IMG/VR virus record: IMGVR_UViG_3300048010_000468 | Coordinates: 1-31,031 of that record | Source of the DNA: a virus | Strand: one strand, 5' to 3' | DNA: 31,031 nucleotides | Shown here: in pieces, positions 1-28,407 of the stretch | Layout: each line of letters starts with the position of its first letter | Numbering within the stretch: position 1 is the stretch's first letter | Notes under the pieces: generated by a model | Databases searched by the model: none | The model's input: the letters and a program-made list of their open reading frames with translations, nothing else | Told to the model about the DNA's origin: nothing | Program-made: the position numbers and the translations under genes

Positions 1-1401
1 ATTGATGATTATATTGGTGAGTGCATTTTAAAAATCTGCCAGAATCTAATTCGCAAAAAAGGATTTATTGAATTCAGTCAGACTCATGCTGAAGATATGA
101 TCGGTGATGCTATCGAAAATTGTTTTCACCGGTCAACTAAAGTGATGACAATCGAACATGGCTCAATTGAAATTGAAAAAATTGTTGGTAAAGAAGTTAC
201 TGTCAAAGCTAAAGATGGTGTCTGGCGCAAAGCAAAAGTTCGAAGTTATGGTGAACAAGATTTGTATGAATATACTTTTGGGGCATTTAATGTAAGTGTA
301 GAAAAATGTTTTCAAAAAGTAATTGCTACCAAAAATCATCGTTGGTTTGTGACTTCGAGAAGAAATAACAAAAGGCACCTAGTTTCTCATGAAGGTGTAG
401 TTACTGATTTGCGAATCGGTGATTGTTTAGAAAATGCAGCAAATATCGACGATATGAATAAAGATGCCATTATTCATGGTTTGGTTTTTGGTGATGGTTC
501 TGGACATAAAACACAAGTTTTCAATGGCCGTTGTGTTGATGTTCAAGGAGAAAAATGGGCAAAACTACGTGTATGTAAACAAGATGCTGTTGGCGAAGAA
601 ATAAACAACATTCTACAATCAAGTGGATATAAACCAACATTTCCAAAAAGCGCACACGGTGATGCGTGTTATGCATTAGGCAATAAACCTTATGTAAAAG
701 ATTTACCTTATACAACAGATCCAGAATATATTAGAGGATTTATATATGGTTGGTGGTTGGCTGATGGAAATAAAACAACAGGACATCGACGTAATACAAT
801 TACAACAAGTAGAAGAGATGCAGCGGAGTGGCTGAAAGAAAATGCATGTTACGCTGGCTATCAAGTAACATCTTTTCTCGAAAAATGGGGAAATACAGAG
901 TTCAAAAAAAATCGGGTATTGTTTACAATTAAATATGCCGAAAATACTACATATGAGCCAAAAGTAAGAGATATTAAATATGTTGGCAAAGATGAAGTAT
1001 TTTGTCTCGAAGAACCAGTAACACATAGTTTTGTTTTAGGAAACGGATTGTTGACTGGAAATTGTATTCTCTACATATCATCATTTGATCCTCGTAAGTC
1101 AAAAGAACCATTTTCATATTTCACACAAGTAGCTACCTGGGCATTTGTTCGCAGAATTGAAAAAGAAAAGAGAGAAGTTTATTTCAAATTAAGATCATTA
1201 CACAATATGGATGGCTTAATGGATTCTTCTTTTCAAGAAGAACATGATGATACTTACGATGGTAAAATTATGAGTGATGATTGGTTGATTCATACACGAA
1301 ATTATGTAAATGAATATGAAAGCAAAATGGAAAAGAAAAGAAAAAGACAACGCAAGAAAAAAGAAGAGAAACAACAGATTCTAAGTTTAGAAAGGGAATG
1401 A
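1..1401 (+). CDS. 55: Late-transcription sigma factor gp55, interrupted by an intein (5' partial)
   Basis: T4 gp55 is the small sigma factor that directs host RNA polymerase to TATAAATA late promoters and is activated by the sliding clamp. The reading frame is open from base 1, so the N-terminus lies outside the window. The segments MIGDAIEN (from 97) and CILYISSFD (from 1063) flank a 314-aa intein. Joined, they align with the conserved T4 gp55 stretch MIADGIEASIKGLHNFD, and FTQVATWAFVRRIEKEKREV matches T4 [20 protein letters not shown], the core-polymerase-binding sigma region 2. The C-terminal tail is very basic (lysine/arginine-rich) and ends QQILSLERE, where T4 gp55 has its clamp-binding peptide. 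Gene 47 starts one base after the stop. The assignment rests on aligned residues and gene order; active protein requires the intein to splice. Confidence 0.9.
   Translation: MDDYIGECILKICQNLIRKKGFIEFSQTHAEDMIGDAIENCFHRSTKVMTIEHGSIEIEKIVGKEVTVKAKDGVWRKAKVRSYGEQDLYEYTFGAFNVSVEKCFQKVIATKNHRWFVTSRRNNKRHLVSHEGVVTDLRIGDCLENAANIDDMNKDAIIHGLVFGDGSGHKTQVFNGRCVDVQGEKWAKLRVCKQDAVGEEINNILQSSGYKPTFPKSAHGDACYALGNKPYVKDLPYTTDPEYIRGFIYGWWLADGNKTTGHRRNTITTSRRDAAEWLKENACYAGYQVTSFLEKWGNTEFKKNRVLFTIKYAENTTYEPKVRDIKYVGKDEVFCLEEPVTHSFVLGNGLLTGNCILYISSFDPRKSKEPFSYFTQVATWAFVRRIEKEKREVYFKLRSLHNMDGLMDSSFQEEHDDTYDGKIMSDDWLIHTRNYVNEYESKMEKKRKRQRKKKEEKQQILSLERE
121..1062 (+). other. In-frame intein with LAGLIDADG homing endonuclease, inside gp55
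   Basis: The insert begins with Cys (codon 121-123) and ends with Gly-Asn before a Cys +1 extein residue (codon 1063-1065), as needed for class 1 protein splicing. Within its 314 residues, block B reads TKNH (the TxxH motif, about intein residues 70-73). Two LAGLIDADG-type helices read IHGLVFGDG (about 118-126) and FIYGWWLADG (about 207-216), each with the catalytic acidic residue. The C-terminal block reads HSFVLGNGLLTGN. The penultimate residue is Gly, not the usual His, a variant that often still splices. Removing the insert restores a continuous gp55. It is therefore a full-size, apparently active mobile intein, not a mini-intein. Confidence 0.92.
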
Positions 1402-2900: not shown

Positions 2901-4034
2901 ATGAGAATTGATAATGAATTGAAACTGGATTACAGTGATGTCTTGTTGCGGCCTAAAAGATCGACTCTTGGTTCTCGCAAAGAAGTTTCTCTTAAAAGAG
3001 ATTTTCGTAAAGTTAACTGGTCTGGTCTACCAATCATGGCTGCAAATATGGATGGTGTTGGTACAATTGAAATGGCGACCGAATTAGCCAAACAGAAAAT
3101 GTTTACATGTCTTAAAAAAACATACGACACAACACAACTTATTGAATTTTTTTCAAATAAACTAAATTGTCAACACACGGCAATGAGTATTGGAATCACA
3201 GATTATGATTTTCGTAAGTTCTGTGATGTTTATAGTATATGTCAAAATTTAAAATTCGTTTGTATTGATGTTGCCAATGGTTATAGTGAAAGATTTGTTG
3301 ACTTTATTAAAAAAATTCGTGAAGTTGATTCACAAGGAATATATGATGCAAAGGCAAATGATACATTTCGAAGACACAATCCTTTGTTCATCATTGCAGG
3401 TAATGTTGTAACTGGTGAAATGACAGAACAATTGATTCTGAATGGTGTTGATATTGTTAAAGTTGGAATTGGACCGGGAAGTGCATGTACCACTCGCATT
3501 CAAACTGGAGTTGGATATCCTCAATTAAGTGCCGTAATTGAATGTGCTGATGCTGCACATGGTCTTGGTGGATTGATCATTGCTGATGGTGGTTGTACAT
3601 GTCCTGGTGATGTTGTCAAGGCATTTGCTGGTGGTGCAGATTTCGTGATGCTTGGTGGTATGTTAGCTGGTCATGTTGAAGGTGGTGGTCAAATCATTGA
3701 AAAACATTATGTCACAAACGAAATTGAATACACCTCTGAAGATTATCCTCAGTATGAATTAGTTCGTGAGACAAAGAAGTTTGTCGAGTTCTACGGCATG
3801 AGCAGCAAGAAGGCAAATGACATTCACTTCGGTGGTCTGAAAGACTATCGGGCCGCTGAAGGTCGTGAGGTGCGAGTGCCCTATCGTGGTGAAGTTGCTA
3901 ATACTGTTCAAGAAATTCTTGGTGGTCTCAGAAGTGCCTGCACATATGTTGGTGCAGATCAATTAAAAGACTTGACAAAATGCGCCACATTTGTTAAAGT
4001 ATCGAATCAGTACAACACAACTTTCTCTGCATAA
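2901..4034 (+). CDS. guaC: GMP reductase (IMPDH/GMPR family)
   Basis: GMP reductase converts GMP to IMP using NADPH. This 377-aa TIM-barrel protein has the N-terminal signature [15 protein letters not shown], the catalytic loop [11 protein letters not shown] with the nucleophilic Cys at about residue 196, the phosphate-binding IIADGGC segment, and the GMPR-type flap and tail ([37 protein letters not shown]). The tail and the absence of CBS domains separate GMP reductase from IMP dehydrogenase. The length is slightly above the bacterial enzyme (about 347 aa). An SD AAGGAA lies at 2891. A metabolic gene between 47 and 46 is unusual. The last quarter (3780-3900) is more GC-rich than its neighbours. 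Probable role: redirecting host purine nucleotides. Confidence 0.92.
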
Positions 4035-26818: not shown

Positions 26819-27007
26819 ATGATTGGATATAAGCTTATTCTAAAAACTAAAACAAATGAGATACATAAGATTGATGGTTGGATTCAGCATGGTAACAAAC
26901 TCACCAAGAAAATGGCTGAACAACTTGCAAGAGAAGAATTAGCAGATCCACAGTATATGTCCGCAACTGTACTTACTGAAACAGGCACTAAAGTATATTC
27001 ACGATAG
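26819..27007 (+). CDS. Small unknown protein
   Basis: This 62-aa protein (starts MIGYKLILKTKTNEIHKIDG) looks like a small alpha/beta fold. SD TGAGGAA is good, but no promoter is visible after the upstream terminator. Its last nine bases overlap the end of the convergent minus-strand gene. Not recognised. Confidence 0.68.
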   Translation: MIGYKLILKTKTNEIHKIDGWIQHGNKLTKKMAEQLAREELADPQYMSATVLTETGTKVYSR

Positions 27008-27508
27008 GCGTGACATGCGAGAAGCATACCATCTTTCCATTTGTTCTGGTGTGTTTACTCGCCCTTTATTTCTTTGACTGATTTTATTTCGTGTTGACTG
27101 GCTCACTGGTAATTTCTCAACACCAAGACGTTTCTTTTCTTTTTCAACAAATTTCAATCTTGATTCAGATTGTTTGCGTTTTGTTTCTTCTGAAACTACT
27201 TTATTCTTTTTTGAAGAGCCAGCACCATTTTCAATAACCATGTTAGCCCATTCATTGCTTTCTACAATATTCCATTTGTGTGAAAGCATTTCTGCAACTT
27301 TTCTAAATTCAGACTTAGAATGTGTTCTAAAGATAACTCTTGTCATAATTTCGTATCCATGTTCATGTAGATGATTTCTCCATTCAACACCAGAACCAAG
27401 ATACTTATTATGATTTTCTCGAATGGTCTTACATAGATACTTGAGACCAGTCTTTTTGTGTTTTTTAATTATCAATTTGATTGGTTTAGCCGAATAATCA
27501 TTTTTCAT
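26999..27508 (-). CDS. Putative homing endonuclease (phage GIY-YIG-like/NUMOD type)
   Basis: This is the only convincing minus-strand gene. The 169-aa product matches a family of phage homing-type nucleases: LIIKKHKKTGLKYLCKT, KYLGSGVEWRNHLHEHGYE and WNIVESNEWANMVIENG. A basic C-terminal part with two NUMOD3-like repeats (SEETKRKQSESR and TRNKISQRNKGR) is probably the DNA-binding region. The start is set at 27508, with GGAG six bases before it, not at the ATG at 27520. A TATAAATA lies upstream on the same strand. It is wedged between two + strand genes, as expected of a mobile gene. Some residues of the family motif are altered (LCKT for the usual FGKT), so activity is uncertain. Confidence 0.78.
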   Translation of the reverse strand: MKNDYSAKPIKLIIKKHKKTGLKYLCKTIRENHNKYLGSGVEWRNHLHEHGYEIMTRVIFRTHSKSEFRKVAEMLSHKWNIVESNEWANMVIENGAGSSKKNKVVSEETKRKQSESRLKFVEKEKKRLGVEKLPVSQSTRNKISQRNKGRVNTPEQMERWYASRMSRLS

Positions 27509-27534
27509 TATTTGCTCCATAATTTGTTTTTAAC

Positions 27535-27542
27535 TATTTATA
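27535..27542 (-). promoter_or_regulatory. T4-type late promoter for the minus-strand homing gene
   Basis: Exact TATAAATA on the minus strand (TATTTATA on +), 26 bases upstream of the 27508 start. The predicted transcription start near 27529 leaves a leader of about 20 nt that includes the GGAG site. Position relative to the only minus-strand gene makes chance less likely. Confidence 0.6.
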
Positions 27543-27575
27543 GCTGAAATTAAAGGAGGTCTTATAGGACTTGAT

Positions 27576-28046
27576 ATGATGGTACATGAAATTCGTACAT
27601 GGGAAAAGCAGGAATTGAAAAGATTTATAACTGCAATTCAATCAGTTACACCAACAATCAATGTGAACAATCCTGATCCGGATGTTGATGAAGTTGATAT
27701 TGATGCAGTGTTTCAACAAAATCCAACAATACCTGTGCCGTATCAAATTGGTATCGAACTATGCTACTGGCGCAAACATCCAGATCTTCATGGTTGGATG
27801 CGAGATTTGTTTTATGAAAAAGGTGGTAAATCAGAAACATCATTCAATGGTGATGTTGTTTTTCTGACTGTTAATGATGTTGAGAATCTAAGAACGGCAA
27901 TTGTTGATGAGAAATTACCATACACTTCTGGATTCTTTTTTGGTGAATCAGAAGGCCGTGCTAAAGATAACGACCTTTTAGAGATTGACAAGATGCTCAA
28001 GGCTCTTGAAAAAGGCTCATCAATCTATTACACTTCTTCATGGTGA
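27576..28046 (+). CDS. Conserved phage protein of unknown function
   Basis: This 156-aa acidic protein has features I recall in a phage-wide hypothetical family: IELCYWRKHPDLHGWM (about residues 60-75), YEKGG, VFLTVNDVENL, LPYTSGFFFG and a final YYTSSW. No function is known to me. Start choice is uncertain: ATG 27576 and 27579 are adjacent, the strong AAAGGAGGT lies 15 bases upstream, and a weaker AGGA lies six bases upstream. The leader is shared in part with the divergent late promoter region. Confidence 0.75.
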   Translation: MMVHEIRTWEKQELKRFITAIQSVTPTINVNNPDPDVDEVDIDAVFQQNPTIPVPYQIGIELCYWRKHPDLHGWMRDLFYEKGGKSETSFNGDVVFLTVNDVENLRTAIVDEKLPYTSGFFFGESEGRAKDNDLLEIDKMLKALEKGSSIYYTSSW

Positions 28047-28050
28047 TCAT

Positions 28051-28407
28051 ATGGCAAAGAGAATCCGTGGTGGCAAATTAACTGCTCGACAGAAACTCAT
28101 TGCCGAATGCAAGGCCTTCAACAAAGGCCTTTCTCCTCGCTTGAGAAAAAGCCTTGAAGAATTTGCTGCCTATAAATATGGCTATGTAACAGCAACCTAT
28201 CGTCCAATACCAAAAGAAGAGGTTGTATATCAACGTGAAGAACAGCATGTACCAAGTTTAAATAGTGGTGTTCTTTGTGCTACAAAAAAGAAAGAACAAG
28301 TGTATACAGGTGAAGTTGTGATTGGTGTGGGAGTTGCACATAAATCAAATCTAACACCAATTATCAACAAACAACAAGCAGAAGATTTAGCATCAATGAG
28401 GCGATAA
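28051..28407 (+). CDS. Conserved phage protein of unknown function
   Basis: ATG 28051 (after GGTGAT) is preferred to the longer ORF starting at 27985, which overlaps the previous gene. The 118-aa product has a basic N-terminus (MAKRIRGGKLTARQK) and the C-terminal pattern VPSLNSGVLCATKK, YTGEVVIGVGVAHKSNLTPI and DLASMRR, which I recall as a widely conserved phage hypothetical. Its stop shares a base with the next ATG (TAATG). Confidence 0.78.
   Translation: MAKRIRGGKLTARQKLIAECKAFNKGLSPRLRKSLEEFAAYKYGYVTATYRPIPKEEVVYQREEQHVPSLNSGVLCATKKKEQVYTGEVVIGVGVAHKSNLTPIINKQQAEDLASMRR

Follow-up and report, generated by a model that had tools for sequence, protein, structure and literature searches.

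Inteins of phage ribonucleotide reductases are in print, including seven nrdA and two nrdJ cases from ocean metagenomes (PMC3653736). The element described here is a 314-residue insert in the late sigma factor gene gp55 of a T4-like phage. The reductase inteins of Vibrio phage V6Aob, Morganella phage MP1, Klebsiella phage FBKp34 and Thermobifida phage P318 are homologous to it over 314 residues, and phage reductase inteins, including that of the metagenomic locus L036, have the same blocks, an N|C-type insertion and mostly the same LAGLIDADG layout. The gp55 intein is 24.8-27.6% identical to the GenBank phage reductase inteins and 45% identical to L036, and it differs from them in its host gene, theirs being a reductase and not gp55. 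PI-SceI, the yeast VMA1 intein, likewise consists of a HINT domain with an inserted LAGLIDADG endonuclease, but it is eukaryotic, occupies another host gene and is about 13-20% identical over the aligned part. Class 3 inteins (mycobacterial DnaB, 6bs8 and 6rix) have a triplet in common with the gp55 intein and resemble it in fold (Z 16.2 and 15.9); unlike them, the gp55 intein has Cys1 and TxxH. The Mja TFIIB mini-intein (5o9j, among the Foldseek matches) also lies in a transcription initiation factor, but is archaeal, and its likeness to the gp55 intein is one of fold. T4 gp55 is a homologue of the extein (7d7c, E 9.6e-13; Z 15.0) but has no intein, its residues 78 and 79 being contiguous. 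By analogy with T4, the gp55 of this phage would direct transcription from late promoters.

The window, i.e. the whole stretch of DNA that was analysed, is an entire virus record of 31,031 bases and possibly a fragment. Positions 1-1401 form a single 466-aa frame with an open 5' end and a stop at 1399-1401; the 5' end of the gp55 gene is cut off by the contig end, a point that the sequence-only reading had missed. Residues 1-40 and 355-466 of the frame match PHROG 234, 'late sigma transcription factor' (E 5.4e-9 and E 8.7e-21), and the 314 residues between them, 41-354, have no PHROG 234 match. A second contig, L004, shares the first 127 nt of the window without a difference and breaks off after 7 nt of the intein. 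It adds 62 N-terminal residues of gp55, with which the precursor would be 528 aa long. Contig ends overlapping by exactly 127 nt would be expected from an assembly graph with k=127, and L004 may therefore repeat the evidence of the window instead of adding a second line. The features of the locus are as follows.

1..1401, + strand: gp55 precursor frame, 5' end missing (open frame, PHROG 234; the missing 62 residues are in L004)
1..120, + strand: N-extein, last 40 residues (PHROG 234, E 5.4e-9; identical residues in the intein-free contig L002)
111..114, + strand: two nucleotides (111 and 114) at which the empty sister allele differs, a presumed tract of co-conversion
121..1062, + strand: intein, 314 aa (precisely absent in L002; homologues; predicted fold)
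121..159, + strand: block A, Cys1 at 121-123 (alignment)
319..348, + strand: block B, TKNHRW, with Thr70, His73 and Trp75 (alignment)
466..501, + strand: first LAGLIDADG motif, Asp125 at 493-495 (alignment, model)
727..768, + strand: second LAGLIDADG motif, Asp215 at 763-765 (alignment, model)
991..1038, + strand: block F, Cys295 (F:4) and His302 (alignment)
1039..1062, + strand: block G, Thr312-Gly313-Asn314 (alignment; TIGR01443 above cut-off)
1063..1401, + strand: C-extein, Cys+1 at 1063-1065, stop at 1399-1401 (PHROG 234, E 8.7e-21)

The insert is in frame, 942 nt long, with the junction EN|C. Family models alone make a weak case for an intein: TIGR01443 (intein C-terminal region) passed at 17.1 against a cut-off of 15.6 bits, and on the same insert Pfam Intein_splicing (20.2 vs 35.8) and TIGR01445 (11.2 vs 24.5) did not reach their cut-offs. 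The main evidence comes from homologues, the empty site and the fold, which confirm what the sequence-only reading had proposed, a full LAGLIDADG intein of 314 aa at EN|C of gp55. The residues of a class 1 intein are all present (Cys1, Thr70 and His73 of TxxH, Asn314 and Cys+1), and the precise in-frame insert is accompanied by relatives with an intact empty site and by a HINT fold in the model. Two LAGLIDADG motifs end in catalytic Asp-Gly (Asp125 and Asp215) and lie in helices of the model (114-124 and 201-215). The AlphaFold2 model of the intein (pLDDT 80.9, pTM 0.79; weak stretches at 128-144 and 218-223) predicts a HINT domain with an inserted PI-SceI-like endonuclease. Foldseek with this model ranked PI-SceI first (E 4.1e-12) among 23 matches with E no higher than 0.001, and VIA gave Z 18.1 to NpuDnaE and Z 17.7 to 1jva. 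Position, splicing blocks, endonuclease motifs, empty site and kinship are shown at the level of sequence, and the fold at that of the model.

Alleles of gp55 with and without the intein were compared. L002, which lies on a 58-kb contig, carries gp55 without the 942 nt, a precise empty site at the EN|C junction, where the sequence-only reading had suggested a comparison with insert-free relatives. The flanks of L002 and the window agree at 457 of 459 nt and, when joined, encode the identical 152 residues; with the L004 residues included, spliced gp55 equals the L002 protein at 214 of 214 residues. The site is also empty in L003, which is less closely related (364 of 459 flank nt). On the 3' side, comparison of the window with the sister contig gives 43 differences in 25,944 nt (99.83% over 25.9 kb), the first of these lying 2.8 kb past the intein. 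Upstream, differences from the sister were seen at -6 and -9 and next only at -334, the left-flank comparison past -120 using another contig, G003; -6 and -9 are the sole differences between -333 and +2812, about 3.1 kb of flank. Both are silent and leave the gp55 protein unchanged. By a hand count made after they had been seen, the chance of both falling at most 9 nt from the junction is about 3e-5. Phage intron homing is known to co-convert flanking DNA (PMC2988022), and the junction-adjacent differences are presumed to be a co-conversion trace of recent homing.

One allele with a gp55 intein was found in total. The donor lineage was sought in viral_contigs through a gp55 pattern carrying the codons of the presumed donor flank, and there were 0 matches. 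As to a source within the phage itself, the three related fragments G001-G003 gave no NrdD match, and an L036-type reductase was absent from the six related fragments examined for it, all of these fragments being incomplete. The comparison with the sister contig G001 also revealed mosaicism elsewhere. The 99.83% match ends at window position 27006, differences cluster ahead of this boundary near 26830-26983, and 27007-28136 is 82-92% identical to G001 with unmatched gaps. On the other side, a further mosaic segment lies in the adjoining helicase-like frame: after 324 identical nt, G003 (L016/L017) has 49 differences from G001 between -334 and -1199.

The relatives of the intein were sought in two collections. 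Of 50,697 phage records, seven aligned to it across its full 314 residues (best E 3e-18). Five of the seven carry a ribonucleotide reductase annotation, and the other two are unannotated faecal contigs with frames that are NrdD-like by eye. A first scan of IMG/VR found 25 loci with a related intein. For ten of these the host gene was examined with Pfam, giving six reductases, of which three have a B12-dependent insertion domain, as well as two NrdD, a RecA and one unassigned; the remaining 15 were read by eye. A second scan added seven loci, whose hosts were, by eye, reductases (L149-L151 and L153), terminase-like (L152) and primase-like (L154 and L155). Members in genes other than reductases include those in RecA (L051 3001-3885, by Pfam), in the terminase-like gene (L152 3001-4002) and in a primase-like gene (L154 3001-3933). 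The closest relative, L036, is an intein in a class II reductase. A tree of 21 rows groups it with the gp55 intein at 98/90 support, some of the deeper forks being weak. No gp55 match was found on the L036 contig, and the L036 locus has a G+C content of 59.7% compared to 34.5% for the window. Alignments and tree place the gp55 intein in a family that sits mostly in phage ribonucleotide reductases; the kind of intein is already known, and the novelty, within the collections and open literature searched, is the host gene, gp55. With the intein alone as query, viral_contigs gave 13 pattern matches, 0 of them confirmed. An alignment of the window and L036 gave 95 pattern matches in genome_contigs, again with 0 confirmed, so that a search of this sensitivity showed no cellular relative. 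The likeness between the reductase and gp55 insertion-site DNA was not notable beyond N|C, as judged without a chance estimate.

The ungapped alignment to T4 gp55 (7d7c) puts the insert between T4 residues 78 and 79. T4 gp55 binds the polymerase clamp helices through E70, D74 and E77 (PMC7892883). These residues align to D94, D98 and E101 of the present gp55, and the intein follows N102, so that this one residue separates it from the last of the three aligned acidic contact residues. D98, E101 and C103 are invariant among 26 aligned gp55 homologues; L132, which is outside this alignment, has Ala instead of the Cys at C103. In the predicted structure of gp55 (pLDDT 84.5, pTM 0.69; Z 15.0 to T4 gp55), the insertion site lies within helix 85-105. 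Both the T4 alignment and the model agree with the initial placement of the intein in the core-binding region and put it in the polymerase-binding helix. PHROG 234, 7d7c and the model all point to homology with T4 gp55 in a Sigma region 2-like domain; Pfam Sigma70_r2 scored below its cut-off on L002 gp55 (17.2 vs 24) and was seen in 21 of the 26 homologues at E up to 1. From the position of the insert it is fair to infer, as had been suggested from the sequence, that unspliced gp55 would be inactive and that splicing is a prerequisite for active gp55.

The impression that an intein is uncommon in gp55 held up when other gp55 genes were inspected. The near clade comprises eight contigs (L002, L003 and L023-L028) with frames of 214-219 aa or less and without the insert; they represent four distinct gp55 proteins, one of which is common to five contigs. 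Among more distant loci, the best 80 of 591 (79 distinct frames) were all uninterrupted at the site, with EN|C kept in 77 and deviating in L106, L132 and L139. In GenBank, 1,781 phage records matched gp55, at one place each, and all 60 taken evenly down the ranking, a sample that includes near-copies, crossed the site uninterrupted. In the open literature, covered by titles and abstract starts and with InBase, nr and subscription papers outside the scope, no intein in gp55 or sigma factors was found. As far as searched, gp55 is a host gene without intein precedent in these collections and the open literature. A different homing element is present at the gp55 locus of Sinorhizobium phage phiM19, where a MobE homing endonuclease gene (L020 803-1074) overlaps the gp55 end on the opposite strand.

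The active-site residues were compared across the intein family. Cys1, TxxHxW, Cys at F:4 and a penultimate Gly are present in 24 of 24 distinct full-length members, and Thr at G:5 in 23, L154 having Ser. When six members cut on the 5' side of the match are added, Cys F:4 and the penultimate Gly are found in 30/30, Thr in 29/30 and Asn as the last intein residue in 29/30 (Gln in L011). Trp at B:12 occurs in 29 of 29, L150 being without the block. For the IMG/VR relatives the Trp and Cys counts are biased, since the search patterns contained both residues; the six members found without those patterns (the window and L008-L012) all have Trp and Cys. The gp55 intein has the class 3 triplet, Trp75 (B:12), Cys295 (F:4) and Thr312 (G:5), but in place of the missing first nucleophile of class 3 it has Cys1, and its penultimate residue is Gly313 rather than the His that is common, though not obligatory, in class 1. 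By its aligned residues the family combines features of class 1 (Cys1, TxxH) and class 3 (Trp-Cys-Thr) with a penultimate Gly, a combination that, like the kinship with reductase inteins, goes beyond the sequence-only reading. Mixed-signature inteins with Cys1 and the class 3 triplet were reportedly described by Tori and Perler in 2011. Splicing by the class 1 route is the more cautious assumption, with class 3 chemistry a lesser possibility, because class 3 inteins are without the first nucleophile (PMC5050341), Cys is the second commonest F:4 residue among inteins (PMC4031507) and Trp at B:12 is possible in class 1 inteins (PMC7891396). The mycobacterial DnaB class 3 example has DxxH and a penultimate His (PMC6195587). 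A phage RDF intein with a penultimate Gly splices well, and changing this Gly to His makes it slower (PMC5050341); a penultimate Gly is compatible with splicing.

Several other features were seen in the window. TATAAATA occurs 5 times compared to 2.66 expected, a count reached in 12 of 100 shuffles, which is no clear enrichment. Between 23599 and 25729, TTGACA-16 nt-TATGAT plus CTGATCAT forms the core of five similar 65-nt copies, 65-100% to the reference copy, which are repeated early-promoter-like cassettes; their core pattern has 4 exact matches vs 0 expected, and a 66-nt stretch of the same kind, 98.5% identical, lies reversed at G003 3030-3095. A gene of the phage IMP dehydrogenase/GMP reductase family at 2901-4034 (Pfam IMPDH, E 1.9e-62) has no intein; split inteins are known in an IMPDH gene of ocean phage-like DNA. 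The 890-aa frame at 9345-12017 matches phrog_459, 'peptidase' (E 3.6e-119), with no Pfam match at E 0.01. No tRNA or Rfam family was found in the window.

Collectively, these results make it very probable that a complete, mobile intein of the reductase family recently homed into gp55 of a T4-like phage and splices out of it. After translation, Cys1 would start splicing by the class 1 route, which Cys295 at F:4 may assist or replace; the N-extein would pass to Cys+1, Asn314 would cyclise and ordinary 214-aa gp55 would be released. During mixed infections, the LAGLIDADG part would cut intein-free gp55 alleles, and repair would copy the intein into the cut allele with a short flanking tract. An intact empty site would likewise be left if an old intein, inherited with gp55, had been lost precisely from the relatives, and with a single full allele known the direction is inferred. 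Such a history is very unlikely given that 8/8 near-clade contigs (four distinct proteins) and 80/80 of the best 80 of 591 loci are empty, that the two sister differences adjoin the junction and that the nearest intein relative is in a reductase. It is more doubtful still that the intein has decayed and no longer splices, leaving gp55 broken: the penultimate His is replaced by Gly and two family models are under cut-off, but the frame is open, all nucleophiles are kept, Gly is present in 30/30 family members and a Gly-type phage intein splices (PMC5050341). The contig begins 120 nt before the intein and the data are metagenomic only, as would suit an assembly artefact that joined an intein to gp55 at a contig end. 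The probability of this is negligible, as both junctions are in frame at catalytic residues, the right one continues into 25.9 kb matching the sister, and the left one is also in L004, possibly from the same assembly.

The unspliced precursor should bind RNA polymerase improperly, so splicing would be needed, and it is probably constitutive. The sequence-only reading had gone further and proposed that the intein could time or condition the late programme, which found no support, since near-isogenic and related phages are without the insert and the active-site signature is common to inteins in reductases, RecA and other genes; a timer role is without positive evidence. Conditional splicing that holds back or gates gp55 and thereby sets the timing of the late genes, e.g. 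through the redox state of Cys1, Cys295 and Cys+1, would suit the location in the polymerase-binding helix and the several catalytic cysteines. Oxidants inhibit the mycobacterial DnaB class 3 intein via its block F Cys (PMC6195587), and penultimate residues tune splicing in phages (PMC5050341). We nevertheless consider it very unlikely: besides the intein-free phages, the signature is common to inteins in unrelated genes, no gp55-specific adaptation was seen and no residue was found to separate this intein from its reductase kin.

There is a slim chance that the intein is a post-translational gate whose mixed Cys1 and Cys(F:4)/Thr(G:5) site ties splicing to the state of the cell, e.g. redox. 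If so, gp55 would dock on the polymerase only under given conditions and, because the signature is fixed in the phage reductase inteins too, a single cue would act, through one intein family, on both the supply of DNA precursors and late transcription. Under the favoured reading of a recently homed, self-removing intein, a late switch of the sigma family is added to the genes invaded by inteins, with the insert beside the polymerase contacts. The nearly fixed class 1/class 3 signature offers a good test of the relation between the two splicing routes, and the near-identical phage pair with and without the insert would be a clean system for homing, co-conversion and any effect on cost or timing.
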